NCBI GenBank assembly: GCA_012728895.1 | Contig: JAAYEG010000078.1 | Location: 1-64,000, forward strand | Source of the DNA: Methanospirillum sp. | Lineage (GTDB): Archaea > Halobacteriota > Methanomicrobia > Methanomicrobiales > Methanospirillaceae | Length of the DNA stretch: 64,000 nucleotides | Direction: 5' to 3' | In this document: one piece after another, positions 1,096 through 62,702 of the stretch | Numbering within the stretch: position 1 is the stretch's first letter | Layout of the letters: every line of letters starts with the position of its first letter | Notes under the pieces: generated by a model | The model's database searches: none | Told to the model about the DNA's origin: nothing | Seen by the model: only the letters and a program-made list of their open reading frames with translations | Program-made: the position numbers and the translations under genes

Positions 1096-1660
1096 GGCCC
1101 GGGACGGCCCCGCCCGAGGCGCCTGTCCGGGCCGCGCCGAGCACCTGCCGGACGTCCTGCTCGCTCACCGGGATGCCGGCCATCCCGAGCAGCTCCTGGA
1201 GCGTGACCGTCTGGTCCTGCTCGAATGGCACGTTCACGGTCAGGATCTTGTAGACGTCGCCCGAGACGGTGCCGCCCACCCGGAACGTGATCCGGTCATG
1301 GCCGGCCCGGACCGTCGCGAGGGCCGCCTCGAGCAGGGCCTCGTTGTCGAGCGTGACCGGCTCCTCTTTTGCGATCGACTGCCGGGCCAGGAGAGTGAAC
1401 GGGCCGGTTTGCCCGCCGCCAAGGCGCCGGACGCCGCCGCTCTCGACCGAGGAGACCGTGAACGCGACGTCGCGGATCGGGATATCGAACGAGTTCGGGT
1501 TCGTGACCTGGACCACGACCTGGAGCGTCGTGTTCGCCGGCGTGAACGTGCCGACGCGCACTCCCTGGACCGCGACCGTCGGCTGCGCGATGCAGCCCGA
1601 GGTGCCAGCGATCACCAACATCACAGCGAGGAGAAGGGCGGATCCGAGGAATCGGGCCAT
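1076..1660 (-). CDS. LEA14/WHy-domain lipoprotein
   Basis: A 194-residue protein beginning MARFLGSALLLAVMLV, followed by a lipobox-like AGTSGC. It is therefore probably exported and lipid-anchored at Cys. The rest matches the LEA14-like/WHy fold: an immunoglobulin-like sandwich with the hallmark VQVTNPNSFDIPIRDVAFTV near residues 50-70 and a second strand set ending LTVNVPFEQ. Such proteins are common in methanogens and linked to desiccation or stress tolerance, but their molecular role is unclear. An in-frame ATG 16 codons upstream was rejected because it would bury the signal peptide. It is convergent with the preceding gene. Confidence 0.8.
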   Translation of the reverse strand: MARFLGSALLLAVMLVIAGTSGCIAQPTVAVQGVRVGTFTPANTTLQVVVQVTNPNSFDIPIRDVAFTVSSVESGGVRRLGGGQTGPFTLLARQSIAKEEPVTLDNEALLEAALATVRAGHDRITFRVGGTVSGDVYKILTVNVPFEQDQTVTLQELLGMAGIPVSEQDVRQVLGAARTGASGGAVPGLTIVVG

Positions 1661-1739
1661 GGCACAGGTTCCAGTGCGCCCGAACGGGCGCGCGCCTCCC
1701 GTTGGCACGGATTCTACTTAAGGATATTCTCCGGCCGCC

Positions 1740-2579
1740 CTACCGGCGTGCCAGGCAGATCCAGCGGTCGTAGACCGGGTCGCGTTCGTTCTCGAAGACC
1801 TCGACCCCGCGACCGTTCTCCACGATCCAGCCGGCGACGAGCGCCGCCTCGGGCTCCGAACCCATCGTGATGAGGGTCTCGTCCGAGAGCGCGAGGACCT
1901 GGAGGAGGAGCTCGCGCCAGAGGGAGTCGTTGAGCCCGGGGTAGCACTGCCCGACCATCAGGGCGAGTCCGAGCGGGGCCGGCTCGATATAGTCGGACGC
2001 GAAGGCCCCGTCGATCCAGCAGACCTCCTCTGGCCTGAGCCGCCCTTCGGCCAGCCCGAGCGAGATGAGGGAGGCGTCGTTGTCGTAGGAGACCGGCACC
2101 ATCCCGAGTGCCCGGAGCACGGACGCGCCGATCCCCGAGCCGCAGAAGGCGTCGATCGCGCGTGCACCGTCACGCCTTCCCCAGAGGTTCTCCACGAGGT
2201 CCAGCGCTTTTGGGAACCGGTCGGGCGGAAGGTCATTGATCGCGGGCGGCACCTCGCCCCGGAGCCGCCCGGCATAGTACGCCCGCACCGCGCGGGCCCA
2301 GGACTCTCGCGTCTCCTGGTAGATGTCGCCCCCCGTCTCCTCGAACCGCTCGAGCCAGACGACCGACGGCGCGCGGTAGAGGAAGGTCGTGGCGCGCCAG
2401 GCATCGTCGTCGCGGAGCGCGACCGCGATCGGGTCGTCGTTCTCGTCCACGAGCAGGCGCCCTCCCGTCGCCTCCATGTCAGGAATGACAGAGGAGTAGA
2501 TTTCGTCGGTCAGTTCGGCGAAGCTCGGCTCAACGAACCAGAGCTCCGGTACCTCGATCATCTCAGCTGCCGTGGTCAT
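1740..2579 (-). CDS. predicted SAM-dependent methyltransferase-fold protein
   Basis: A 279-residue cytosolic protein. The central segment AIDAFCGSGIGASVLRALG, followed by VSYDND, has the glycine-rich motif I and acidic post-I turn of class I SAM-binding Rossmann folds. The usual motif IV NPPY/DPPY is not evident; VGQCYPGLND sits near that place. The substrate is therefore unknown and catalysis not certain. The N-terminal ~130 residues carry an Asp/Glu-rich domain that I cannot place. The gene start overlaps the end of the upstream beta-helix gene by 17 bases, so the two are probably co-transcribed and translationally coupled. Confidence 0.7.
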   Translation of the reverse strand: MTTAAEMIEVPELWFVEPSFAELTDEIYSSVIPDMEATGGRLLVDENDDPIAVALRDDDAWRATTFLYRAPSVVWLERFEETGGDIYQETRESWARAVRAYYAGRLRGEVPPAINDLPPDRFPKALDLVENLWGRRDGARAIDAFCGSGIGASVLRALGMVPVSYDNDASLISLGLAEGRLRPEEVCWIDGAFASDYIEPAPLGLALMVGQCYPGLNDSLWRELLLQVLALSDETLITMGSEPEAALVAGWIVENGRGVEVFENERDPVYDRWICLARR

Positions 2580-3429
2580 CGCTCCACCATGTCTCCCTGC
2601 GGATGCGGAGCCCCTCCGGGGCCCGCATGGTTCCCTCCACCAGCGCCTGCTCGTGGACCTCTATCGTGCGCCCGTCCAGGTCCCCCAGGACGCGCGCGCC
2701 CGGCCCGACCTCGATCGTCCCCCTGGACGCGATCGTGCCGTGGATGACCGTCCCCGGGCCGATGACGACCCGCTCCGTGGCCCTGACAGAGCCGAAGAGG
2801 GTCGTGTTCTCCCCGATCTCCACGACCCTCCCCCGGACGTTGCCATGGAGCCGGCAGTTCGAGCCGATCCCCATCTCGCCTGGCACCTCGAGCCGCTCCA
2901 TGTCGAAGATTGCGCCGGGGGGGATCACGAGCGGATGCTCCATGGCCCCCTCGTCGCTCCCGAGCACCTCCGCCACGAAGCGCTCGACCTCGTCCTCGTG
3001 CTCGAAGCGGAGCATGGCCATCAGGTACAGCATCAGGTACACGATCACCGGGAGCGGGTTGCGAATCTGGATCCAGCCCCGGGCCTCGAAACCCTGCTCG
3101 ATCTTGACGTTGTCGCCGATGTCGAGGTCGCCGGCGACCGAGAGGCGGCCCGCGATCCGGACCCCTTCGCCGAGGTAGGCGTCCTCCTCGGTCCGGACGT
3201 CGCCGCCCACCTCGGTCCAGCTTCCTATCCTGACATCGCCCGCCGCCGATACCGATCCGTTCACCCGGCAGAACTCGGCCACCACGACCTCGGCGCCGGC
3301 GAGCCCGTAGTCGATCCGGCAGCGGTCCCCGACAAGGATGGCGCGGTCCGTGCTCAGCGTGTGCTCCTGGAGCTCGGTACTGTCGGGGATCGTGCACCGT
3401 TCGAGGAGTGCGGGCGCGGTCTCGTCCAT
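2563..3429 (-). CDS. bactofilin-like polymer-forming beta-helix protein
   Basis: A 288-residue protein made almost entirely of short imperfect repeats (for example IGSWTEVGGDVRTEEDAYLG and VVIGPGTVIHGTIASRGTIE) typical of bactofilin/DUF583 or left-handed beta-helix folds. Such proteins self-assemble into filaments or act as scaffolds; no acyltransferase histidine is evident. The helix is interrupted near residues 122-140 by a hydrophobic stretch (LPVIVYLMLYLMAMLR) that could be a membrane anchor or hairpin, followed by an acidic linker. It heads a two-gene unit with the methyltransferase-fold gene. A shorter homologue-like protein is encoded at 53786-54208. Confidence 0.75.
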   Translation of the reverse strand: MDETAPALLERCTIPDSTELQEHTLSTDRAILVGDRCRIDYGLAGAEVVVAEFCRVNGSVSAAGDVRIGSWTEVGGDVRTEEDAYLGEGVRIAGRLSVAGDLDIGDNVKIEQGFEARGWIQIRNPLPVIVYLMLYLMAMLRFEHEDEVERFVAEVLGSDEGAMEHPLVIPPGAIFDMERLEVPGEMGIGSNCRLHGNVRGRVVEIGENTTLFGSVRATERVVIGPGTVIHGTIASRGTIEVGPGARVLGDLDGRTIEVHEQALVEGTMRAPEGLRIRRETWWSDDHGS

Positions 3430-3450
3430 CAGCGGGTGTCCAAGAGTGTT

Positions 3451-4686
3451 TCAGGCCCCGTATTTATGAGCCTTGCCGATCAGGTCCATCAGGATCGGCA
3501 GCAGGTCCCGGCCACGGATCCGGTGGAGCCCCCCCTCGGCGCAGGCGAACTCGTCGTAGCTCTCGACCCGATCCGGGCGGACCCCCTCGCCGTGGATGAG
3601 AACCGGCACGGGATCAGCCGAGTGGTCCTTGACCACGCAGGGCGTGGAGTGGTCGCCGCAGATCGCGATCACGGTCTCATCCAGGGCGAGGAGGGGCTCG
3701 AGCGCGCCGTCGATCCGCTCGATGAAGTCGCGCTTCTGCTCCGGCTTCCCGTCGTGGCCGGACTCGTCCGCCCCCTTGATGTTCAGGAGCACGAATCCGC
3801 GGTCCGCGAGCGCCTCCCCGGCGGCGCGGACCTTCCCCTCGATGTTCGAGTCGAGCGAGCCGGTCGCCCCCTCGACGGAAATCGTCTCGAGCCCGACCAC
3901 CTTCCCGATCCCCGTGATCAGGGTGGCGGCCGAGACCACGGCACCCCGGAGGCCGTAGCGCTCCTCGAACGGCTCGAAGTTCCCCATCAGGCCGGCTCCG
4001 CGCAGCAGCACCTCGTTGGCCGGATGGAGCCCCCGGGATTGCCGTTCGCGGTTGAGCGGGTGCTCGAGGAGGATCGGCCGGGCCTGTCGGACGAACTCGT
4101 TCAGGACCGCCGCTGTCTTCTCGTCCTCGGGCCGGTCTGTCGTCGACGCGAAAGGGATCGGCGGGATCCCCTCGTGCTTGGGGTCGTTCGAGCTGACGCC
4201 GTCGCCGAGGCCCGGGCCCTTGAGAGCGAGCGCGGCGCGGTGGCCGGCGCCCGAGACGAAGCGGAACGAGACACCGAATGGCGAGAGGTCCACCCCTACC
4301 TCGATCGCCTTCGAGAGGGGGGCGGTCCCCTGGATCCTGCCGGCTCGCCGGTCGGTGACGGCGCCGTCCGGTCCGACCGTCGCGTAGTTGGCGCGGAACC
4401 CGATCATGCCCGGGAGCATCCGAATCCCGGACCCCTCGGCCTCGAGCGGCCCGCGGCCCGTGTAGCACTCCTCTGGCGGGTACCCGAGGAGGGCCAGGTG
4501 AGAGGTGTCCGAACCCGGCCGGATCCCGGGCGCAATCGTGTCCATGATCCCCGTGACGCCCTCCCGGGCGAAGCGGTCGAGCACGGGCGTCCTCGCCGCC
4601 GAGAGGGGCGTCGCGCCGCCGAGTGCCGGGTGCGGCCGGTCGCCGATACCGTCGAGGACGATCAGCACGATCCTGCGTGCGGTCAT
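3451..4686 (-). CDS. apgM: 2,3-bisphosphoglycerate-independent phosphoglycerate mutase, archaeal type
   Basis: Interconverts 3- and 2-phosphoglycerate in glycolysis/gluconeogenesis. The 411-residue product begins MTARRIVLIVLDGIGDRP, with the metal-binding DG of the alkaline-phosphatase superfamily. It has the phosphoacceptor region PGSDTSHLALLGY, and metal ligands in the C-terminal GADESGHDGK and ICGDHSTPC. Length fits the archaeal AP-superfamily enzyme (about 400-415). The frame stays open far upstream, but there the translation is low-complexity and lies antisense to or within rps3ae; the ATG at 4686 fits the family N-terminus. Methanogens use it mostly in the gluconeogenic direction; an enolase-like gene lies at 11296-12444. 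Confidence 0.95.
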   Translation of the reverse strand: MTARRIVLIVLDGIGDRPHPALGGATPLSAARTPVLDRFAREGVTGIMDTIAPGIRPGSDTSHLALLGYPPEECYTGRGPLEAEGSGIRMLPGMIGFRANYATVGPDGAVTDRRAGRIQGTAPLSKAIEVGVDLSPFGVSFRFVSGAGHRAALALKGPGLGDGVSSNDPKHEGIPPIPFASTTDRPEDEKTAAVLNEFVRQARPILLEHPLNRERQSRGLHPANEVLLRGAGLMGNFEPFEERYGLRGAVVSAATLITGIGKVVGLETISVEGATGSLDSNIEGKVRAAGEALADRGFVLLNIKGADESGHDGKPEQKRDFIERIDGALEPLLALDETVIAICGDHSTPCVVKDHSADPVPVLIHGEGVRPDRVESYDEFACAEGGLHRIRGRDLLPILMDLIGKAHKYGA

Positions 4687-11143: not shown

Positions 11144-11295
11144 GGGTGTCTCCTCGGAAGGGGTAGGAGTTATCAGCGGGACCCGCGGTTGACGGTGAAC
11201 TCCATCACCGATCACCATCGGGCGTCATCGCTCGTGAACCCTTCGGACCCGAGACCCTCATTGTCCCGCCGATGCACCGCTCCGCGGGCGCCGGA

Positions 11296-12444: not shown

Positions 12445-13099
12445 GGTCTGCCTCCGTGATAGATGGTCGGAGTCGGCGGTTCCGCGTCGGGTAGAGAACG
12501 AACAGGTGCACACAGTCCGGCCGGGCCGGAGAGCTGCGGCCGGGGCTCACGGCGAATGCGCTGACGGGGGAATCCCGCAAAGCGGAAAGAAGTGCTGAAC
12601 ATCGACCGAGGGGTTGAAGTCATCAGCCGGATCCCGGCGGTTTATCGGCGGACTTCATCGCCTGTTTCGGGTGATGGTTCGGACGGCACCGTGCGGCGCC
12701 ATCGGGGTACTGTAACGAGCACGAATCTATATCACAGCGTCAGGGAGCTGGGTCGGCCCCCTCCTCGGGGATAGTCATGGGGCTGTCATGTGAACCGGTT
12801 GACAGCGGAACGGCTTTCTGTGCGCATGGTCATTGGCAGCACGCACGTTTGCGCCGGAAGAGTTCGGGGGAAGGTTGCTGAGCGGGCCTGCTGACCGAAG
12901 CTCGGAGCGACGCCGGAGCGGTCGCGGACACGTGAAAAAAAGCGAACGGGTCGCTGTTCGGATCCTTCGCGCGTCCGCTCCTGTCATCGACGAAGGTCGG
13001 TCGAAAAAGCGTGTGCCGAAACCGTCGTAAAACGCGGGCGGTTTTAAGGTCCGCGGCGCGGTCCACGGCGAACCCTTCTGCCAAAACAGGCCCTATCCC
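12445..13099. other. gene-free region between eno and the arvC end
   Basis: About 655 bases with only short, low-quality frames. A TATA-like AATCTATATCAC at about 12723-12734 could drive a plus-strand transcript of unknown product. A G-run followed by T-rich CGGTTTTAAGG around 13030-13042 lies just behind arvC and may help end that operon. I cannot recognise a known RNA here. Confidence 0.45.
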
Positions 13100-14697: not shown

Positions 14698-14769
14698 GCA
14701 GATATCCGAATACGGAAAACCTTAATGAACCTCAATGACAGATACGACCGAAAAGGGGGGGAGTTCCTG

Positions 14770-15336
14770 ATGATGTCGTCCGACACCATGCACCTGGAGA
14801 CCAGGGTACAGCTGAGAGAGATGATGCGTCTCAATCCCACGACGATCGATTTCGACGCCTCGGTCGCCGACGCGGCCAGGGCCATGTGCCAGGCCGATGT
14901 CGGGAGCGTCATCGTCCTGGAGAACAACCTCCCGATCGGCATCGCGACCGAACAGGACATCAACTGCAAGGTCGTCGCCCACGACCGCCGTCCCGGCGAG
15001 GTTCCGGTCAGCGAGATCATGTCCACTCCCCTGATCACGATCGGTGCCGAAAAGACCGTCTCGGAGGCAGCCCACCAGATGGTGCGCCACGGCGTCCGCC
15101 GCCTCCCGGTGATGGACGAGAACCACCGCGTTATCGGGATCGTGACCGTGCGGGACCTCCTGACCGTCGCCAACGAGATCAACGAGATAATGAACGATCT
15201 CGTCATGATCAATCGTGTCGACGACGGGTTCGAGGGCGGGGTCTGTGATCGGTGCGGTCTCATCTCCTCGGACCTGCTCAGGGTCGACGGGCAGCACCTC
15301 TGCTCGAACTGCCGGACCGAGGAGCACCTCGGATGA
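14770..15336 (+). CDS. CBS-domain pair protein with C-terminal zinc ribbon
   Basis: The first of five consecutive CBS genes. Two CBS domains cover about residues 15-145: TTIDFDASVADAARAM to IGIATEQDI, then MSTPLITIGAEKTVSEA to IGIVTVRDLL. A zinc ribbon with CDRCG and CSNC forms the C-terminus. CBS pairs bind adenine nucleotides or SAM and sense energy state; the ribbon may bind nucleic acid or protein. The start at 14770 was chosen for the strong site GGGGGGGAG 7 bases upstream. An upstream in-frame ATG at 14725 would add MNLNDRYDRKGGEFL. The gene overlaps the next one by 4 bases (ATGA). Confidence 0.88.
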   Translation: MMSSDTMHLETRVQLREMMRLNPTTIDFDASVADAARAMCQADVGSVIVLENNLPIGIATEQDINCKVVAHDRRPGEVPVSEIMSTPLITIGAEKTVSEAAHQMVRHGVRRLPVMDENHRVIGIVTVRDLLTVANEINEIMNDLVMINRVDDGFEGGVCDRCGLISSDLLRVDGQHLCSNCRTEEHLG

Positions 15337-16088
15337 AGACGGCGGTCGACCTCCTGCGCGAGGTTCCGCTGCTCTCTTCCGACGACTATGCGACGCGGGC
15401 CAGGTCGATCCTTCGCGACGACCTGTATCGCGAAGCCCTGGTCGCGGACAATCGTGGCGCCCTCGCCGGGTACATCGACATCTCGGACGTGCTCCGGGTA
15501 GGCGCCACCCGCTCGAACGTGACCGTCGACGGCTTCGTCCGCGAGGCCCCATCGGTCACGCCCGGGGAGAGCCTGGAGAGGATCGGAGCCCTCCTGCGTG
15601 AGTACCGCACGGACTCGGTCGCGGTCGTCGGGGAGGACAGGTCCGTCCTGGGCGGGGTCCTCCTCGCCGAGGTCTTTCCGATCCTGCTCATGCGCCACGA
15701 GCCGGGCGGTGTCGTCGGAGATCTGATGTCGACACGGGTCGTGACGGTCGATGCGGGCGAACCTGCCTCGAGGGTCCAGGCCCTCGTGCAGGAGAGCGGG
15801 TTCTCGGCCTTCCCGGTCCTCAAGCGGCAGCAGCTGGTGGGCATGATCTCACGTCGCGACCTGCTCGCCTCCGGCCGCGTGCGCCGCCCATCCGAGGTAA
15901 AACTCGCCGTGGAGGCCGTGATGACCACTCCAGCGATCACGGTCTCCCCTGACGAGAGGGTCTCCGACGCGGCCAGGCAGCTCTGCCGGCACGACATCAG
16001 TCGAATGCCGGTGGTCGACGGGGGCCGGGTGGTCGGGATCTTCGACCGGCACGACGTGCTCCGGGCGCTCGCGCTCGCAGAGGATTGA
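15333..16088 (+). CDS. four-CBS-domain protein
   Basis: A 251-residue protein with four consecutive CBS repeats. They are marked by GALAGYIDISDVL, VLGGVLLAEVF, LVGMISRRDLL and VVGIFDRHDVLRA, the last two being the most canonical. The two Bateman modules probably bind adenosyl ligands and change shape with ATP/AMP or SAM level. No effector domain is attached, so it likely acts on a partner protein. It overlaps the genes on the 5' side by ATGA and lies 8 bases before the next CBS gene, clearly within one operon. Confidence 0.87.
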   Translation: MKTAVDLLREVPLLSSDDYATRARSILRDDLYREALVADNRGALAGYIDISDVLRVGATRSNVTVDGFVREAPSVTPGESLERIGALLREYRTDSVAVVGEDRSVLGGVLLAEVFPILLMRHEPGGVVGDLMSTRVVTVDAGEPASRVQALVQESGFSAFPVLKRQQLVGMISRRDLLASGRVRRPSEVKLAVEAVMTTPAITVSPDERVSDAARQLCRHDISRMPVVDGGRVVGIFDRHDVLRALALAED

Positions 16089-16096
16089 GGTGAGAT

Positions 16097-17044
16097 ATGC
16101 AGGGGAACGATATCAACCACAAGGCATCCGACAGGCTCTTGAAGATGCCCGGCAAGCTCGACCGTGGCCCGGTCGAATTCGCGTCCCGCGTGGCACCCCG
16201 CAGGGGAGAGCTCATGGAGATCGCGACCAGGACGGTCGTCTCGATCCCGCCGACGATGGCAATCATCGGGGCTGCCCAGGCCATGACGGCCTGCGGCTTC
16301 CGGCGGCTCCCGGTCACGGACCCGGGCACCAACCGGGTGCTCGGTATCATGACCGCGTCCGACATCATCAGCCTCCTCGGCGGCGGAGAGAAACAGAACC
16401 TCGTGACGATCAAGCACGGGGGGAACCTGCTCGCGGCCGTGAACGAGTCGGTCCGCGAGATCATGAGCGCCCACTATCTCTCGCTCCGGACCACGCAGAC
16501 GATCGATGATGCGCTCGACCTGATCCTGGGGCGGAAGATCGGGGGCCTTCCCATCGTGGACGCGGAGGAGACGCTCTGCGGGATCGTGACAGAACGGGAT
16601 GTGCTGGCCCTGCTCGGCACCGGGGCAAGCCCGCTCTCGGTCGAGGAAGTGATGTCGACCTCGCTCCGGGTGACCGCTCCCGAGTCCTCGATAAGGGCGG
16701 CGACCCGCGAGATGGGCCGCTGCCGGTTCAGGCGCCTGCCGGTGGTCTCCGAGGACGTCCTCTTCGGGATCATCACCTCGACCGACATCGTCCGGTACAT
16801 GGGCACGGGCGAGGTCTTCGATCGCCTCGTCACCGGGAACGTGGAAGAGGTGATGGACCTCCCGGTCCGGACCCTGATGAAGGGCGAGCTGGTCACCACC
16901 ACGCCCGAGGTCCCCATCAACGCGGCAGCCCGGGTCATGCTCGATCGGGGGATAGGGGCCCTCCCGGTGATCGAGGACTCGCGTCTCATCGGGCTCGTGA
17001 CCGAGTTCGACATGGTCCGGGCGTTCGCGGAGGCCAGGGACTGA
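16097..17044 (+). CDS. four-CBS-domain protein
   Basis: A 315-residue protein with about 45 N-terminal residues of unknown role followed by four CBS repeats, each ending in a canonical strand-helix: VLGIMTASDIISLL, LCGIVTERDVLALL, LFGIITSTDIVRYM and LIGLVTEFDMVRAF. The start ATG is preceded by GAGGTGAG. No catalytic domain is present. Its TGA overlaps the following ATG (TGATG). It is the longest of the five operon products and the one whose repeats best fit the CBS consensus, so it is a good candidate for adenosyl-ligand binding. Confidence 0.88.
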   Translation: MQGNDINHKASDRLLKMPGKLDRGPVEFASRVAPRRGELMEIATRTVVSIPPTMAIIGAAQAMTACGFRRLPVTDPGTNRVLGIMTASDIISLLGGGEKQNLVTIKHGGNLLAAVNESVREIMSAHYLSLRTTQTIDDALDLILGRKIGGLPIVDAEETLCGIVTERDVLALLGTGASPLSVEEVMSTSLRVTAPESSIRAATREMGRCRFRRLPVVSEDVLFGIITSTDIVRYMGTGEVFDRLVTGNVEEVMDLPVRTLMKGELVTTTPEVPINAAARVMLDRGIGALPVIEDSRLIGLVTEFDMVRAFAEARD

Positions 17045-17883
17045 TGCGGGCATCCGACGTAATGTCCTCGCCGGTCCGAGTCATCGGGCCGACCGACTCT
17101 GCAGCGTACGCCCGGAACCTGATGATCCGGCACCGGTGCTCCCGGCTCCCGGTGGTGGACGGAGACCATCTCGTCGGGATCCTCACCAAGAAGGACCTCG
17201 GGTACCGGCTCCGCCAGGCAGAGCCGACCTGGCGGCGCCGGCCGATAGACCGGATCCCGGCGAGCCTGCTCATGACCCCGGACCCCGTCAGCGTCGCGGC
17301 AGACGCATCGATCGGGACGGTGGCCGCCGCGATGGTCGAGTACGGGATCAGCGGGCTTCCCGTGGTGGAGGGCTGCACCCTGGTCGGGATCGTGACAAAG
17401 ACCGACATGCTCGGCTCGGTCTCGGTCGAACGCATCGGGGCGACGGTCGGGGAGCTGATGGGCGACGCCGTGACCGTGTCGCGCTACCACTCCCTCGATC
17501 ACGTGATCGACCTCGCCAGCGAGCGAGACCAGAAGATCGTCGTCGTCAACAACGACGGGACTCTCGCCGGGATCATCACCGAGTCGAACCTCGCCTTCTA
17601 CGAGTACGTCGGACCCGTGCCCGTCGATCTCGACCGGGAGGTGACGATGCTCAGGCGCGAGGTGACGGCGGGACCGAAGACGCGCCGCCACGTGCGCGAC
17701 GTCTCGGCCCTCGCCGAGGACCTGATGACAAGGCCTGTCGAGACCACGCAGCCCGGCGCCTCGGTTGCCGAGGCGGTCCGCCGGATGCGCAAATCAGGGA
17801 TCAACAGTCTTGTCGTGGTCGAGGAGAGCGATATCAAAGGCATTATCACGCGGGATGACGTAATAATGGGGGTTGCCACATGA
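17044..17883 (+). CDS. four-CBS-domain protein
   Basis: A 279-residue protein starting directly with a CBS repeat (MRASDVMSSPVRVIGP). The repeats end LVGILTKKDLGYRL, LVGIVTKTDMLGSV, LAGIITESNLAFYEY and IKGIITRDDVIMGV. Between repeats 3 and 4 lies a basic linker (EVTAGPKTRRHVRDVSALAE) that could contact a partner. It overlaps the flanking CBS genes by 1 and 4 bases, so ribosomes probably pass directly from one to the next. Confidence 0.88.
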   Translation: MRASDVMSSPVRVIGPTDSAAYARNLMIRHRCSRLPVVDGDHLVGILTKKDLGYRLRQAEPTWRRRPIDRIPASLLMTPDPVSVAADASIGTVAAAMVEYGISGLPVVEGCTLVGIVTKTDMLGSVSVERIGATVGELMGDAVTVSRYHSLDHVIDLASERDQKIVVVNNDGTLAGIITESNLAFYEYVGPVPVDLDREVTMLRREVTAGPKTRRHVRDVSALAEDLMTRPVETTQPGASVAEAVRRMRKSGINSLVVVEESDIKGIITRDDVIMGVAT

Positions 17884-18656
17884 ATCAGACCCTGTTTATT
17901 CGGGACATAATGTCCAGGCCGGTGACGATCGCGAAGTCGGCTGTGATCACCGAGGCGCTCGATCGGATGCTCGACCAGGAGATTGACCCTCTGGTTGTGA
18001 CCAACAACGGCGCCGTCGTGGGAACCGTCTCGCGCCGGGCGATCGCGGAGACGATCGGCTCGAAGCGGAACGCGAACCTATCGCCGAACAAGATCCACGT
18101 GGCGAACGTGGTGCAGGAGGAGTTCACCTCGGCGTACGAGGACGAGAGCCTCGACATCGTGGTCCCCCTGCTGCAGGTATACAAGCTCGTGGTCGTCCTC
18201 GACAATGACCACCGGCCGATCGGCCAGGTGACCAGGGGCGACCTGTTGCGGGTGATGCCTCCCGGGGGCTCCGTCGACCAGGCGATGGAGTCGATCGCGG
18301 TCGTTACCCCCGACGAGCGGGTGGTCCACCTCCGTCGGCGCATGCTCGACGACGGGGCAAACCGCTACGTGGTCGCGGACGGGTCCGAGCTGCTAGGCAT
18401 GGTGACCGAGACCGACGTGGCGCGCTCGATGACCCAGTTCCGCGAGGACGTGGCCGACCGGTTCCAGGACCACCGGATCCGGAACCTGATCGTCAGCGAC
18501 ATCATGTCGACCCCCCTCGTCTCGGTTCCTCCAGAGACGCGGGCGACCGACTTGGTCGAGACCATGCTCCAGCGCGGGATCAGCGGCGTTCCGATCGTCG
18601 AGAACGGGCGCTTGCTCGGCGCTGTCTCGCGGCAGAGCCTGGTCCAGGCGCTCTGA
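17880..18656 (+). CDS. four-CBS-domain protein
   Basis: A 258-residue protein, the last of the five-gene CBS operon. The repeats end VVGTVSRRAIAETI, PIGQVTRGDLLRVM, LLGMVTETDVARSM and LLGAVSRQSLVQAL. The second repeat has diverged most in its first strand. Its ATG overlaps the previous stop (ATGA). A pyrimidine-rich tract follows directly and is the likely terminator of the unit. No DNA-binding or enzymatic domain is visible. Confidence 0.87.
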   Translation: MNQTLFIRDIMSRPVTIAKSAVITEALDRMLDQEIDPLVVTNNGAVVGTVSRRAIAETIGSKRNANLSPNKIHVANVVQEEFTSAYEDESLDIVVPLLQVYKLVVVLDNDHRPIGQVTRGDLLRVMPPGGSVDQAMESIAVVTPDERVVHLRRRMLDDGANRYVVADGSELLGMVTETDVARSMTQFREDVADRFQDHRIRNLIVSDIMSTPLVSVPPETRATDLVETMLQRGISGVPIVENGRLLGAVSRQSLVQAL

Positions 18657-58146: not shown

Positions 58147-58173
58147 CCGCCACTCAAGATATGTGACGCATCT

Positions 58174-58248
58174 GCTGCTATAGTGTAGTCCGGCCAATCA
58201 TGAAGGACTCTCACTCCTTCGACTGGGGTTCGAATCCCCATAGCAGCA
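58174..58248 (+). tRNA. tRNA-Glu(CUC)
   Basis: Acceptor stem GCTGCTA pairs with TAGCAGC, discriminator A. Archaeal D arm GTGTAGTCCGGCCAATCAT. Anticodon stem AAGGA/TCCTT has loop CTCTCAC (anticodon CTC), and T arm TGGGG TTCGAAT CCCCA. No intron. An integrase remnant follows within 100 bases, which makes its 3' half a likely past attachment site. Confidence 0.93.
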
Positions 58249-58345
58249 TCCCGTTCTGAGGCCGGAATCTGTTCTGCCATGCATGGAACCGACCGTGAGA
58301 TACTCGCCCCAGCAATGTTATCGTCACAGCGTCGAGGGGCCCTGA

Positions 58346-58590
58346 CGAAGTGCGATCGCGAGCGACTGCTGCCGCCAGCGCCCCGAATACGTCTCCCACT
58401 CCCTGGCACGCCACCAGAAGACCCGCGTCCTCGACGAGGATGACGCCGCGCTCATCCGCGAGTACCTGGACCAGCTCAAGGCCGAGCGGGGTGTCAGCGT
58501 CGGCTGCACGTACAAGGTCGCCTTCCACCTGATCGGCTGGCGCCGGTTCATCGGCCGGTTCCGGATCAATACCATCAGCAACCTGAATGC
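58346..58590 (+). pseudogene. remnant of a tyrosine recombinase (integrase), N-terminal domain
   Basis: An open frame without a usable start after a stop at 58343. It reads QRPEYVSHSLARHQKTRVLD, then DDAALIREYLDQLKAERGVS and YKVAFHLIGWRRFIGRFRIN. This is the SAM-like N-terminal DNA-binding domain of archaeal phage-type integrases (expected LIREYIxExxxxRGIS...LxxWRRF). The catalytic C-terminal domain is missing: the frame runs on directly into TPR sequence. It lies 98 bases behind tRNA-Glu, where such elements integrate. Confidence 0.75.
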
Positions 58591-58624
58591 GGGCAGGAAC
58601 CCGCCGGTTGCACGAGGCGAATTA

Positions 58625-59004
58625 ATGAGGGGGACCGCACTGAAGGTGAAGGAGAACCGAAGTGCAGCGATCGCATCCGATGAACTGGCGATCGATCTCA
58701 ACCCGGAGGACGCTTACTCCTGGAACAACCGGGGCATCGTTCTCGTCGAGCAGGGGAAATTCGCGACTGCGGTCGCAGCGTACGACAGAGCGATAGAACC
58801 CGATCGGGCATGCGCTTCGCCCTGGAGCGGCAGGGGGGGATTCTCGAGAGCGAGGGAAATTTCACGGCGGCGATCGGGGCATACGACCGGGCACTCACTC
58901 GATCCCTCATCGGTCGAAAGAAAGCAGAACCGTGGACACGCTGGTACGAAGAGGCAGGGATCGGCGAGTGCAACCCCGTCGACCACGGTGATGCCGGGAA
59001 ATGA
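58625..59004 (+). pseudogene. TPR-repeat protein fragment with frameshift
   Basis: The frame that carries the integrase remnant continues as TPR repeats: SAAIASDELAIDLNPEDAYS, WNNRGIVLVEQGKFATAVAA and YDRAIE. Near 58820-58830 the repeat pattern moves to another frame (LERQGGILESEGNFTAAIGA, YDRALTRS) and then loses pattern. Methanogens have many TPR genes; this looks like a 5'-truncated and shifted piece, probably brought in or broken with the integrated element. Confidence 0.65.
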
Positions 59005-59262
59005 ACCGGTGCCGTTCGTGATCCGGTTCTCTCTGGCTATCGGAGTGGTCGGCCCCGGGGGAACCCGGGTTCGGCGGGAGTGACCGTGACCCCGACCGCC
59101 ACCGCCATGACATACCATGAGGCGGTATTCCTTCCACATCTCACCATGCCCCGGTGCACCGTGTGTGTGAAAACATTGTTCGAACAAAAAAGAGATAAGC
59201 GGGAGGGACGATTGAACGATGATCGAACATCGCAGATCTGTTAAGTAGCCTGAACGCGACTA
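59005..59262. other. gene-free spacer
   Basis: AT-richer than its surroundings in the second half (around 59160-59250). It may hold the promoter of the DUF2080 gene; no TATA box stands out clearly. Confidence 0.35.
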
Positions 59263-59433
59263 ATGGTCATGGAGCCGATGCGGATCGAGCTGACCGGGTA
59301 CGATGTCGTGGAGAAGAAGGCGACCCGGCAGGGAAACTCTGCCCATGTCCTGATCCCGCCGTCATGGATAGGGAAGCGGGTGAAGGCGATACTGCTCGAG
59401 TCAGTCGATGATACCCCTCGAGTCCGTCGATAG
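59263..59433 (+). CDS. DUF2080 family transposase-associated protein
   Basis: A 56-residue protein beginning MVMEPMRIELTGYDVVEKKA, then RQGNSAHVLIPPSWIGKRVK and ILLESVDD. This matches the DUF2080 family of small SpoVT/AbrB-like archaeal proteins, which are encoded beside transposases. No transposase gene is in the window, so it is probably a leftover of a mobile element. The C-terminus (PRVRR) is short. A second ATG two codons in is possible. Confidence 0.75.
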   Translation: MVMEPMRIELTGYDVVEKKATRQGNSAHVLIPPSWIGKRVKAILLESVDDTPRVRR

Positions 59434-59942: not shown

Positions 59943-62702
59943 ATGCTGACCCCCGAGCAGGAACGGGCGATCGCGCACGGCGAGGGGCACCTCCTGCTGA
60001 TCGCCTGCGCCGGTTCGGGGAAGACCGAGACGATCTCCCGGCGCGTGGCCCGTCTCGTCGTCGACGGCGTCGACCCGTCCTCGATCGTGGCCTTCACCTT
60101 CACCCGGCGGGCGGCCGGCGAGATGGCGGGTCGCATCCGCACCCATCTCTCCGCGTCGTGTCCAGGCGACGCCGACTTCGCCGGGATCTACGTCGGCACG
60201 ATACACTCCTACTGCCACCAGCGCCTGGCACGGGCGGTGCCGAGGTACCGGGGGTACGATCTCCTTGACGATGACGACATACGGCCGGCTTTCTGCCACC
60301 GGTACTTCGACGACCTCGGACTCGACCGCCTCCGGGTCCTGTACGACGGGCGGAAGTACGAACCGTCGCGGTACGATATCATCCGCGACTTCTGCCGCAA
60401 TGCCGACCTCGTCCGCGACGAGCGGATCGATCCCGCCTCGCTCGAGCCGCCGTTCCGGGAGTGCTACCTGGCGTACCTCGACCGCCTCGACGAGGAGCAC
60501 TTCCTGGACTTCGCCGGGATGATCGCAAGCTATGTCGAAGCCCTCGAGAACGACCCCGCGCTCGTCTCGCACGAGCAGGCCCGGGTCCGGCATCTGGTCG
60601 TGGACGAGTACCAGGATGTCAACAGACTGCAGGAGGCGCTGATCCGGCTCATGGCCGGGGAGCATGGCAGCATCTGCGTCGTCGGCGACGACGACCAGTG
60701 CATCTACCAGTGGCGCGGCTCGGACTACGAGAACATCATCTCGTTCCGGACGCGGTATCCCGACGTCACGACAATCCGGATCCAGCAGAACTTCAGGTCG
60801 ACCCCGGGAATCGTCACCGCCGCCGCGCAGGTGATCGACCGCAACAAACACCGCCTGCCCAAGGCCATGGAGCCGTGGCCCGGGGGGCGGGGGCGCACCG
60901 AGCCGGGCGATATCGCCGCCTGCTTCTTCTCGCACCAGGAGGAGGAGATCGCTGCGGTCGTCGAGCAGATTCAGCTCCTGCTCGGCAGGCCGTGCACAGA
61001 CAACCGGGGAGAGAGGCACCCTCTCCGGTACTCAGACATGGCGGTCCTGATGCGGTCCGTCCGGTCCGCTGCGCAGCCGCTGCTGACCGCCCTCCGGCAG
61101 GCCGGGATCCCCTACGTCGTCAGGGGAGGGCGGCTCTTCGATAGGCCCGAGGTCGACGTCGCCATGCATGCCCTCGCGTTCCTCGGCGAGTACCCGTATC
61201 CCCTGCGGAGCGATCGTCCCGTGACCCTCCGGATCCTGCAGCACGCCTTCTCCGGCCTGGGATGGGCAGACGCCGACCCGGTGGCCTTCGGGTCCGCCAT
61301 GGCCGCTCTCAGGCGCGAAACCGGGCGCGCCACCGCAGTCAGCCTCCAGATGCTCCTCCACCGGGTGCTGCAGGCCATGGGTGGCGACCGTGCTCCCTTT
61401 CCGGAGGTCTGGCTCTACAACCTCGGCGAGCTCTCGCAGCTTGTCACCGCCTTCGAGCACGTCTACCCCCGGATCACGCTGCCCGGGATCTACCTCTTCC
61501 TGGAGTACGTCCAGGGCCACGCGATGAACCGCGCTGGCGAGGGCGGGGCGGACGAGCGATCGCTTCCGGACGCCGTGACCGTCTCGACCCTGCACCGGGC
61601 CAAGGGGCTGCAGTTCCCGGTCGTGTTCATGCCCCGGTTGAACGCCGGCACGATCCCGGCGGAATGGACGTTCGAGACCCCGTGGTTCGTACCGGACCAC
61701 CTCTTCGATCGCGAACGCTACCAGGGAGGGGTCGAAGACGAGCGCCGGCTCTTCTACGTCGGGATCACGCGGAGCGAGAAGTACCTCTTCCTGTCCGGTC
61801 ACCGCGCGGGCGATCCTGGCAAACCGCCAGCCAATCCCTCGATCTTCTTCGATGAATACCCCCGGGGCGGGACGGTCGACCGGTTCCCGGTGAGGGGGGC
61901 AGGGAACGATGCCTTCCCGACCGATCTCGCGCCCACCCCGCGGGCACCGCCGCTCGTCGAGACGAGCTGGTCGGCGCTCCGCTACTACGCCCGCTGCCCG
62001 TTCGACTACAAGCTCCGGTTCGTCTACGGGTTCGACCCGCTCCCCAAGGAGGAGGTCGGCATCGGGCGCGCCGTGCACTCGGTGCTGGCAGCCGTTCACC
62101 AGCGGGCCCTGGAGGGCGAGATCGATATCTCCGAGATCCCGGGCCTGGTGGACCAACACATGGTCCTCCGCTTCGCCCGGCAGGAGACGATCGACCGGGT
62201 CCGGGGGATCCTGGCGCGGCAGACCCTGCGCTACGTGCACCGGAGCCGGGCGGGATTCGACCGGATCGCCGGGGTCGAGCTGCCGTTCGCGATCGCGGTG
62301 GGTGACGCGGTCGTCAGCGGCCAGATGGACCTCCTCCTCGCCGGCGAGGACGGCGGGGTCGAGATACGCGACTTCAAGCTGACCGGGGACGGTGCCCGGG
62401 AGACTTGCCCGGATGCGACACGGCAGCTGCAGGTCTACGCAGTCGCGGCGACCGCACTCGGCCACGAGGTGCGCACGGCCGGCATCTATGCCTTCGACAC
62501 GGGGATTCTCGCCGATGTCCCGGTGGATCCGGAGGCACTCGCTGGAACGAGGGACGCACTGGAGGCGATGATCGACGGCATCCGCCGGCAGGATTTCCCG
62601 CAAAATCCTGAAGAGCGGCGTTGCGCCGGCTGCGACTGGACGTGTCTCTGCGACCGGCGATCACGGTCCTGGGAGCAGCAACGGGCGGGATCCGGCCGGT
62701 GA
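59943..62702 (+). CDS. UvrD/PcrA-like helicase fused to a C-terminal Fe-S PD-(D/E)XK nuclease
   Basis: 919 residues. The superfamily 1A helicase covers about 1-640: Walker A LLIACAGSGKTETI, VAFTFTRRAAGEMAGRI (Ia), motif II VVDEYQDVNRLQEALI, VGDDDQCIYQWRGSD (III), VSTLHRAKGLQFPVVFM and LFYVGITRSEKYL. The C-terminal domain (about 670-915) is RecB/Cas4-like: SALRYYARCPFDYKLRFVYG, GRAVHSVLAAVH (His), GQMDLLL (Asp), EIRDFKL (D/E-x-K) and CAGCDWTCLC. These Cys, with the earlier Cys of ARCPF, can hold a [4Fe-4S] cluster as in AddB. It is a one-chain end-resection enzyme by architecture. Confidence 0.92.
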   Translation: MLTPEQERAIAHGEGHLLLIACAGSGKTETISRRVARLVVDGVDPSSIVAFTFTRRAAGEMAGRIRTHLSASCPGDADFAGIYVGTIHSYCHQRLARAVPRYRGYDLLDDDDIRPAFCHRYFDDLGLDRLRVLYDGRKYEPSRYDIIRDFCRNADLVRDERIDPASLEPPFRECYLAYLDRLDEEHFLDFAGMIASYVEALENDPALVSHEQARVRHLVVDEYQDVNRLQEALIRLMAGEHGSICVVGDDDQCIYQWRGSDYENIISFRTRYPDVTTIRIQQNFRSTPGIVTAAAQVIDRNKHRLPKAMEPWPGGRGRTEPGDIAACFFSHQEEEIAAVVEQIQLLLGRPCTDNRGERHPLRYSDMAVLMRSVRSAAQPLLTALRQAGIPYVVRGGRLFDRPEVDVAMHALAFLGEYPYPLRSDRPVTLRILQHAFSGLGWADADPVAFGSAMAALRRETGRATAVSLQMLLHRVLQAMGGDRAPFPEVWLYNLGELSQLVTAFEHVYPRITLPGIYLFLEYVQGHAMNRAGEGGADERSLPDAVTVSTLHRAKGLQFPVVFMPRLNAGTIPAEWTFETPWFVPDHLFDRERYQGGVEDERRLFYVGITRSEKYLFLSGHRAGDPGKPPANPSIFFDEYPRGGTVDRFPVRGAGNDAFPTDLAPTPRAPPLVETSWSALRYYARCPFDYKLRFVYGFDPLPKEEVGIGRAVHSVLAAVHQRALEGEIDISEIPGLVDQHMVLRFARQETIDRVRGILARQTLRYVHRSRAGFDRIAGVELPFAIAVGDAVVSGQMDLLLAGEDGGVEIRDFKLTGDGARETCPDATRQLQVYAVAATALGHEVRTAGIYAFDTGILADVPVDPEALAGTRDALEAMIDGIRRQDFPQNPEERRCAGCDWTCLCDRRSRSWEQQRAGSGR

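Follow-up and report, generated by a model that had tools for sequence, protein, structure and literature searches.

Single-chain proteins that join a UvrD-like SF1 helicase to a Cas4-like nuclease were described in 2017 as the UvrD-Cas4 family, the largest branch of pfam12705, with members in many bacteria and in mesophilic archaea (PMC5704561). Their genes were reported to lie mostly beside type III restriction-modification (RM) genes or Dcm/Vsr, and sometimes alone, and an ancillary defence role was predicted for the family (PMC5704561). A literature search on the family name found no other account, and one for a third gene at type III RM loci found no report; as far as searches show, the family has been described from comparative genomics alone.

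In this study, we examined a 64,000-nucleotide stretch of a Methanospirillum sp. genome (contig JAAYEG010000078.1, positions 1 to 64,000; hereafter the window), in which one protein is a member of this already described family. Other helicase-nucleases share parts of its design. AddAB likewise has an SF1A motor, a RecB-type nuclease and an iron staple, with end resection as the predicted task, but it consists of two chains against one here; the window protein is 26% identical to an AddA of the same order, and no addB adjoins its gene. The mycobacterial AdnAB also has fused helicase-nuclease chains, but there two of them form a dimer, and a second chain was not found in the host genome (95% complete, 80 contigs). 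Bad/DNA2 also unites an SF1 helicase and an Fe-S nuclease (the cluster being predicted here) in one chain, but its nuclease is N-terminal and its motor is of the SF1B 5'-3' type (PMC7430649), whereas the window protein has a C-terminal nuclease and a UvrD-like motor. Among defence proteins, GajB of Gabija has a UvrD-like helicase, but GajB matches cover the helicase half only, and Hna is a single-chain helicase-nuclease, but of SF2 and with no Fe-S cluster (PMC13381803). With respect to the UvrD-Cas4 family itself, the window protein and its closest relatives differ in that no intact RM neighbour was found at their loci and no NurA or full-length AddA in their genomes; such absences are not discussed for UvrD-Cas4 bearers in the accessible part of the family description (PMC5704561). 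What is perhaps new is this setting, an order in which the task of end resection seems to pass from one machine to another, with HerA-NurA and an AddAB-like pair as two of them and a single-chain enzyme derived from defence as a possible third.

The window protein and its predicted domains

The initial annotation had placed a UvrD-like helicase and an AddB/Cas4-like nuclease in one 919-residue protein, and the unbroken frame, the Pfam matches, the residues kept in 43/43 relatives and the structural model bear this out (Table 1). Pfam recognized UvrD-helicase (1.4e-57, residues 2-272), UvrD_C (2.8e-33) and PDDEXK_1 (5.2e-26), giving the combination that defines the family, a UvrD-like SF1 helicase with intact motifs at the N-terminus and a pfam12705 (Cas4-like) nuclease with its active site at the C-terminus. 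The gene has a GC content of 68.4% (GC3 88%), in line with the 68.8% of the window.

Table 1. Positions of the features of the window protein and of related loci in the order
Feature	Position	Strand	Evidence
UvrD-Cas4 fusion, SF1A helicase and predicted Fe-S PD-(D/E)XK nuclease, single chain, 919 aa	59943..62702	+	Single unbroken ORF (start ATG 59943, stop ends 62702), Pfam, conserved residues, model
Helicase half, residues 1-640 (UvrD-helicase and UvrD_C)	59943..61862	+	Pfam; residues 1-649 match UvrD/PcrA/Rep fold
Walker A LLIACAGSGKTE, residues 18-29	59994..60029	+	Lys27 in 43/43 relatives
Motif II VVDEYQDV, residues 219-226	60597..60620	+	Conserved-residue alignment
PDDEXK_1 / Cas4-like nuclease half, residues 674-904	61962..62654	+	Pfam; cas4 model under cut-off
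Cys685, predicted iron-staple cysteine 1	61995..61997	+	43/43 relatives
Nuclease active site Asp796 ... Asp810-x-Lys812	62328..62378	+	Asp796 43/43; Asp810, Lys812 42/43
Cys894, Cys897, Cys903, predicted iron-staple end, C-x2-C-x5-C	62622..62651	+	43/43 relatives
AddAB-like pair on NurA/Rad50 remains, G064	L186 11036-11501, 15152-15241, 16869 on
AddAB-like pair on HerA remains, G129	L169 14716-14868, 6652-13090
Second-family loci	L152, L154, L155, L156, L175 6225-9284, L187 3735-6641

Both halves were matched by 71 frames, from which 43 fused relatives were counted after removal of duplicates and contig-edge copies (L153 and L158, with the nuclease half unmatched, were also left out). The Walker A lysine, the aspartate and glutamate of motif II, His712 and Asp796 are invariant in the alignment of these relatives, as are the four cysteines, which are also kept in 19/19 sequences with those residues in a second alignment set; Asp810 and Lys812 are kept in 42/43. 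AddB, DNA2 and Cas4 share an iron-staple signature of four cysteines spanning a RecB-type nuclease (PMC7430649). The window protein carries this signature, and an Fe-S cluster is predicted from these residues. No NCBIfam equivalog cut-off was reached, with scores of 24.7 bits for cas4 (cut-off 65), 129 bits for addA (707.65) and 89 bits for RecB (696), and the PADLOC matches were helicase models covering the helicase half alone.

An AlphaFold2 model built from 27 sequences had a mean pLDDT of 86.4 and a pTM of 0.87, with a weaker C-terminal end (pLDDT 67 at residues 901-910 and 47 at 911-919); an earlier model from 6 sequences was set aside as too weak (pLDDT 63.7, pTM 0.45). The best fold matches were Rep, UvrD and PcrA, with Z up to 38.7. 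AdnB matched over residues 1-648 (Z 29.8, rmsd 3.4, 573 aligned) and AddA over residues 1-859 (Z 28.3, rmsd 17.1, 721 aligned), and AddB (3u4q_B, VIA-align) was rejected as too loose a match, with Z 23.4 but rmsd 32.9. To judge from the sequence, the protein has an intact SF1A motor, an intact nuclease site and the iron-staple cysteines in one chain at an orphan locus.

The helicase half is nearest to UvrD, PcrA and Rep by sequence and fold, and the gene is the one PF00580 match in its genome and the sole UvrD-type helicase found there, as would befit an ordinary accessory repair helicase acting at forks or in nucleotide excision, with the nuclease half incidental. We consider this explanation improbable, as 42-43 of the 43 relatives retain the residues of the nuclease site and the cysteines, the PcrA/UvrD equivalog scored 277 bits against a cut-off of 911, and the distribution of the gene is sporadic.

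Relatives and their restriction-modification neighbours

In the tree, the window protein lay apart from PcrA and inside a 30-row group (support 100/99) that holds RM-linked members. Its close archaeal clade (100/100) has four members, the others being L027 from a Methanoregulaceae MAG (70% identity to the window protein), G069 (65%) and L028 from a Methanomicrobiales MAG (62%). The next relatives, at 32-40% identity, came from Heimdallarchaeota, a Nanoarchaeota MAG and two other Halobacteriota-like genomes, a nearer placement whose support of 93/94 is below the star of the tool. Among the matches listed, G069 was the only one of 150 genomes of the order with a close homologue, and the distribution across the phylum was patchy (15/392 genomes at E 1e-60). 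The outcome that the initial annotation named as refuting, a broadly and vertically conserved gene whose repair role is known, therefore did not emerge from this survey, nor was gene order around UvrD-Cas4 common to the four clade genomes.

RM parts lay within 5 kb of 26/43 fused relatives and of 0/74 chromosomal PcrA controls, as counted with a 150-base overlap tolerance and with queries that were drawn from eight of the counted loci and hence match themselves there. The two main UvrD-Cas4 branches had RM neighbours in 24/29 loci, comprising 16/21 in a broad branch and 8/8 in a plasmid/phage branch; the sister set had 2/5, a second family 0/5 and the window clade 0/4. On viral contigs (IMG/VR), in a set independent of the RM query loci, RM parts stood beside 14 of the 17 fused genes among 23 examined loci out of 45; a scan of viral contigs with the window protein alone as query gave no match. 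On plasmids and a phage, an annotated Mod/Res, Dcm or other methyltransferase adjoins the fused gene. Pfam and PADLOC also placed a Mod-type N6/N4 methyltransferase and a Res-type ResIII helicase near the sister sequence L126, Dcm and Vsr beside the sister sequence L127 and beside L108, and HsdM and HsdS beside L128; the UvrD-Cas4 proteins of G149 and G119 are RM-linked members as well.

This neighbourhood argues for an orphan anti-invader nuclease, which would degrade DNA ends arising from restriction or belonging to infecting elements, either without an RM system or in trans to one, and which would often be lost and regained. The RM parts beside the relatives, on viral contigs, plasmids and a phage and at the sister loci all fit such a role, as do the patchy distribution, the unshared gene order within the clade, an LmuB-like SMC ATPase beside UvrD-Cas4 in two Heimdallarchaeota and the defence role concluded for the family (PMC5704561). 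We regard it as a real possibility, although one placed second. The locus itself speaks against it: none of the called ORFs of the window matched the 12 RM queries, and a check for defence-linked neighbours outside the window, as proposed in the initial annotation, found none as far as the contig end. Moreover, no PADLOC model matches past the helicase half, and it would be a coincidence that neither NurA nor full-length AddA was found in any genome of the clade (see below). A missing RM neighbour does not bar membership of the family, since stand-alone members are admitted in its description (PMC5704561).

Within the clade, the L028 contig has a truncated PglX-like gene at 1582-3591 (669 aa, model positions 7-570 of 1,332), 2.4 kb from UvrD-Cas4; it was found by PADLOC and missed by the RM queries because the 12 queries hold no PglX. 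In the two Heimdallarchaeota (L029 5962-12668 and L030 3224-9887), UvrD-Cas4 is followed by an SMC/Rad50-like ATPase, which matches PADLOC LmuB at 132 and 118 bits, respectively, and then by a protein of 587-598 aa with no Pfam match and a PIN-like domain read by eye. This trio is a candidate three-gene defence set.

Resection genes in the host genome and its order

The host genome has an Mre11-Rad50 pair, with no nurA or herA in that region, and the block is syntenic with that of G069 (8 shared proteins). The two pairs lie at L129 7009-11264 (G000, the host genome) and L185 7310-11214 (G069). Among the 150 genomes, the host Rad50 had a strong match only in G069 (1.3e-126; the next was 2.9e-18). 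Six genomes of the same family as the host (f1), chosen for their NurA, have the order rad50-nurA-herA. A clade-specific NurA profile, built on six relatives, was positive in 88/150 genomes of the order, against 81/150 with Pfam alone, which is a borderline detector, as its Methanosarcina acetivorans control matched in one search and not in another. NurA was found neither by Pfam nor by the clade-specific profile in the host genome, nor by that profile in G069; L027 and L028 come from genomes that were likewise negative by profile, in a search set with no NurA-positive genome. AddA was not found at E 1e-50 in the host genome or G069, against 82/150 positive genomes in the order; for the L027 and L028 genomes, the search gave SF1 helicases other than AddA as top matches, while G011 was positive at E 0 in the same search. 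The premise of the initial annotation that archaea normally resect ends with HerA-NurA-Mre11-Rad50 thus holds only in part for this order, in which 88/150 genomes have NurA and 82/150 have an AddA.

Among NurA-less genomes, we came upon loci of two genes whose products resemble AddB and AddA. NurA and AddA tend to avoid each other in the order, and in f1 they nearly exclude each other. Across the 150 genomes (with G014, whose NurA was found by Pfam alone), 33 had both NurA and AddA, 56 NurA only, 49 AddA only and 12 neither (p 1.5e-7), and the 34 genomes of f1 divided into 1, 19, 11 and 3, respectively (p 1.3e-5), both p values being post hoc and uncorrected for kinship. We saw no prior report of AddAB in this archaeal order in the literature covered, which included the available text of PMC12977600 and PMC8708640 and covered subscription journals thinly.

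Traces of replacement were found as well. In G064, the sole f1 genome with both genes, NurA is in pieces, and the AddB gene follows closely on a NurA fragment and the final 30 residues of Rad50; in G129, the AddAB pair has the final 51 residues of HerA beside it. Because these remnants adjoin AddAB, the pair seems to have overwritten the archaeal mre11-rad50-nurA-herA locus in these two genomes. G069 retains a 118-residue C-terminal AddA relic at 50% identity (L175 12957-13307) and no full-length AddA, from which we infer that its lineage lost AddA. With such turnover of resection genes in the order, a further replacement by UvrD-Cas4 is plausible.

In f1, both NurA and AddA went unfound in three genomes, those of the host, G069 and G149, and all three carry UvrD-Cas4, which among the matches listed occurs in 1/31 of the other f1 genomes (p 0.0007). 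Order-wide the association is weaker: again among the matches listed, UvrD-Cas4 is present in 4/12 genomes with neither gene and in 12/138 others (p 0.026); the 12 include G044 (77% complete) and G061 (56%), as well as G122, G123, G138 and G147, which were counted without a completeness figure. Both tests are post hoc and uncorrected for kinship, the four clade members may represent one event, and the UvrD-Cas4 set (16 genomes) was read by hand.

The same order also has a second family of UvrD-PDDEXK fusions, about 1,000-1,070 aa long, which is separate from UvrD-Cas4 in the tree (Table 1). It had no RM neighbours in 4/4 archaeal loci tested and co-occurs with NurA in 20/23 genomes, as read by hand among the matches listed. 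Since G069 and the L027 genome each have a second fused UvrD-nuclease of this kind, about 1,030 aa long, UvrD-Cas4 is not their sole helicase-nuclease.

Considering these results, we favour, tentatively and at not quite even chances, a defence-derived UvrD-Cas4 that now resects broken DNA ends over the orphan anti-invader nuclease. The alternatives raised in the initial annotation, a resection or a defence nuclease, were in this sense the right pair, each with partial support: RM parts beside the relatives but not the PcrA controls on one side, and the NurA and full-length AddA not found in the clade on the other. In the resection model, the SF1A motor would start from a DNA end and move 3'-5' along one strand, opening the duplex, and the AddB/Cas4-like nuclease would trim the displaced 5'-ended strand to leave a 3' tail. 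The lineage would have retained an RM-derived gene without its RM system, and UvrD-Cas4 would carry out the end processing done elsewhere by HerA-NurA or the AddAB-like pair, working with the retained Mre11-Rad50 and feeding strand exchange. The motor and nuclease are supported by conserved residues and fold, the polarity and strand choice are suggested by UvrD, AddB and Cas4, and the partners and the retention of the gene are suggested by genome content. In its favour are also the lack of a second UvrD-type helicase among the Pfam matches of the host genome, the Mre11-Rad50 block free of nurA and herA, the f1 association of UvrD-Cas4 with genomes in which neither NurA nor AddA was found, and the AddA relic of G069. 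The model is weakened because the clade shares no gene order, and also because the association is weaker order-wide, the host genome is 95% complete in 80 contigs, G069 and the L027 genome have a second helicase-nuclease and L028 has a truncated PglX nearby. A stronger form, in which an RM-linked UvrD-Cas4 became the main double-strand-break resection enzyme of one lineage, displacing HerA-NurA and AddAB, is possible but less likely than not. If true, UvrD-Cas4 would be a third interchangeable resection solution within one archaeal order and would illustrate a route from a defence gene to core repair. The larger lead is the apparent exchange of one resection machine for another within this order, which raises the question of whether, and by what, the archaeal resection machine is replaceable, a question that can be put to the test by comparing genomes distinguished by a single module.

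The window locus and its surroundings

The gene had been placed just beyond an integrated-element remnant. A tRNA-Glu (58173-58251) is indeed followed by low-GC sequence (together 58173-59433), with a TPR-repeat fragment at 58625-59083 and short broken frames, one of which (59269-59433) resembles, by eye, a small transposon-linked protein. An integrated element carrying the gene was considered and rejected: neither a direct-repeat search nor scanning with 13-mers from the tRNA-Glu end turned up a second attachment copy in the window. Since the tRNA end is not repeated elsewhere in the window, nothing ties the gene to the remnant. No partner gene lies beside UvrD-Cas4, and an AddB query was unmatched in the window and in L188. 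Downstream, as far as the contig end, there are a P-type ATPase, a PAS protein, an RNB exonuclease and an acetyltransferase (the PAS protein and acetyltransferase read by eye).

Beyond the gene itself, the flanks of the four clade loci gave only two kinds of match: P-type ATPases, at 32% for the window against G069, and PAS-type proteins, at 66% for G069 against L027 (244 residues) and at 32% for the window against L027 (125 residues). Because the flanks are unshared while the mre11-rad50 order is shared with G069, the UvrD-Cas4 gene of this clade appears, on this suggestive evidence, to be mobile rather than a settled housekeeping gene.

Elsewhere in the window, a run of adjacent frames at 14725-18656 was read by eye as CBS-domain proteins. 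Two fluoride riboswitches lie 1.4 kb apart on the minus strand (11157-11218 and 12607-12671), and the second directly precedes a frame read by eye as enolase.
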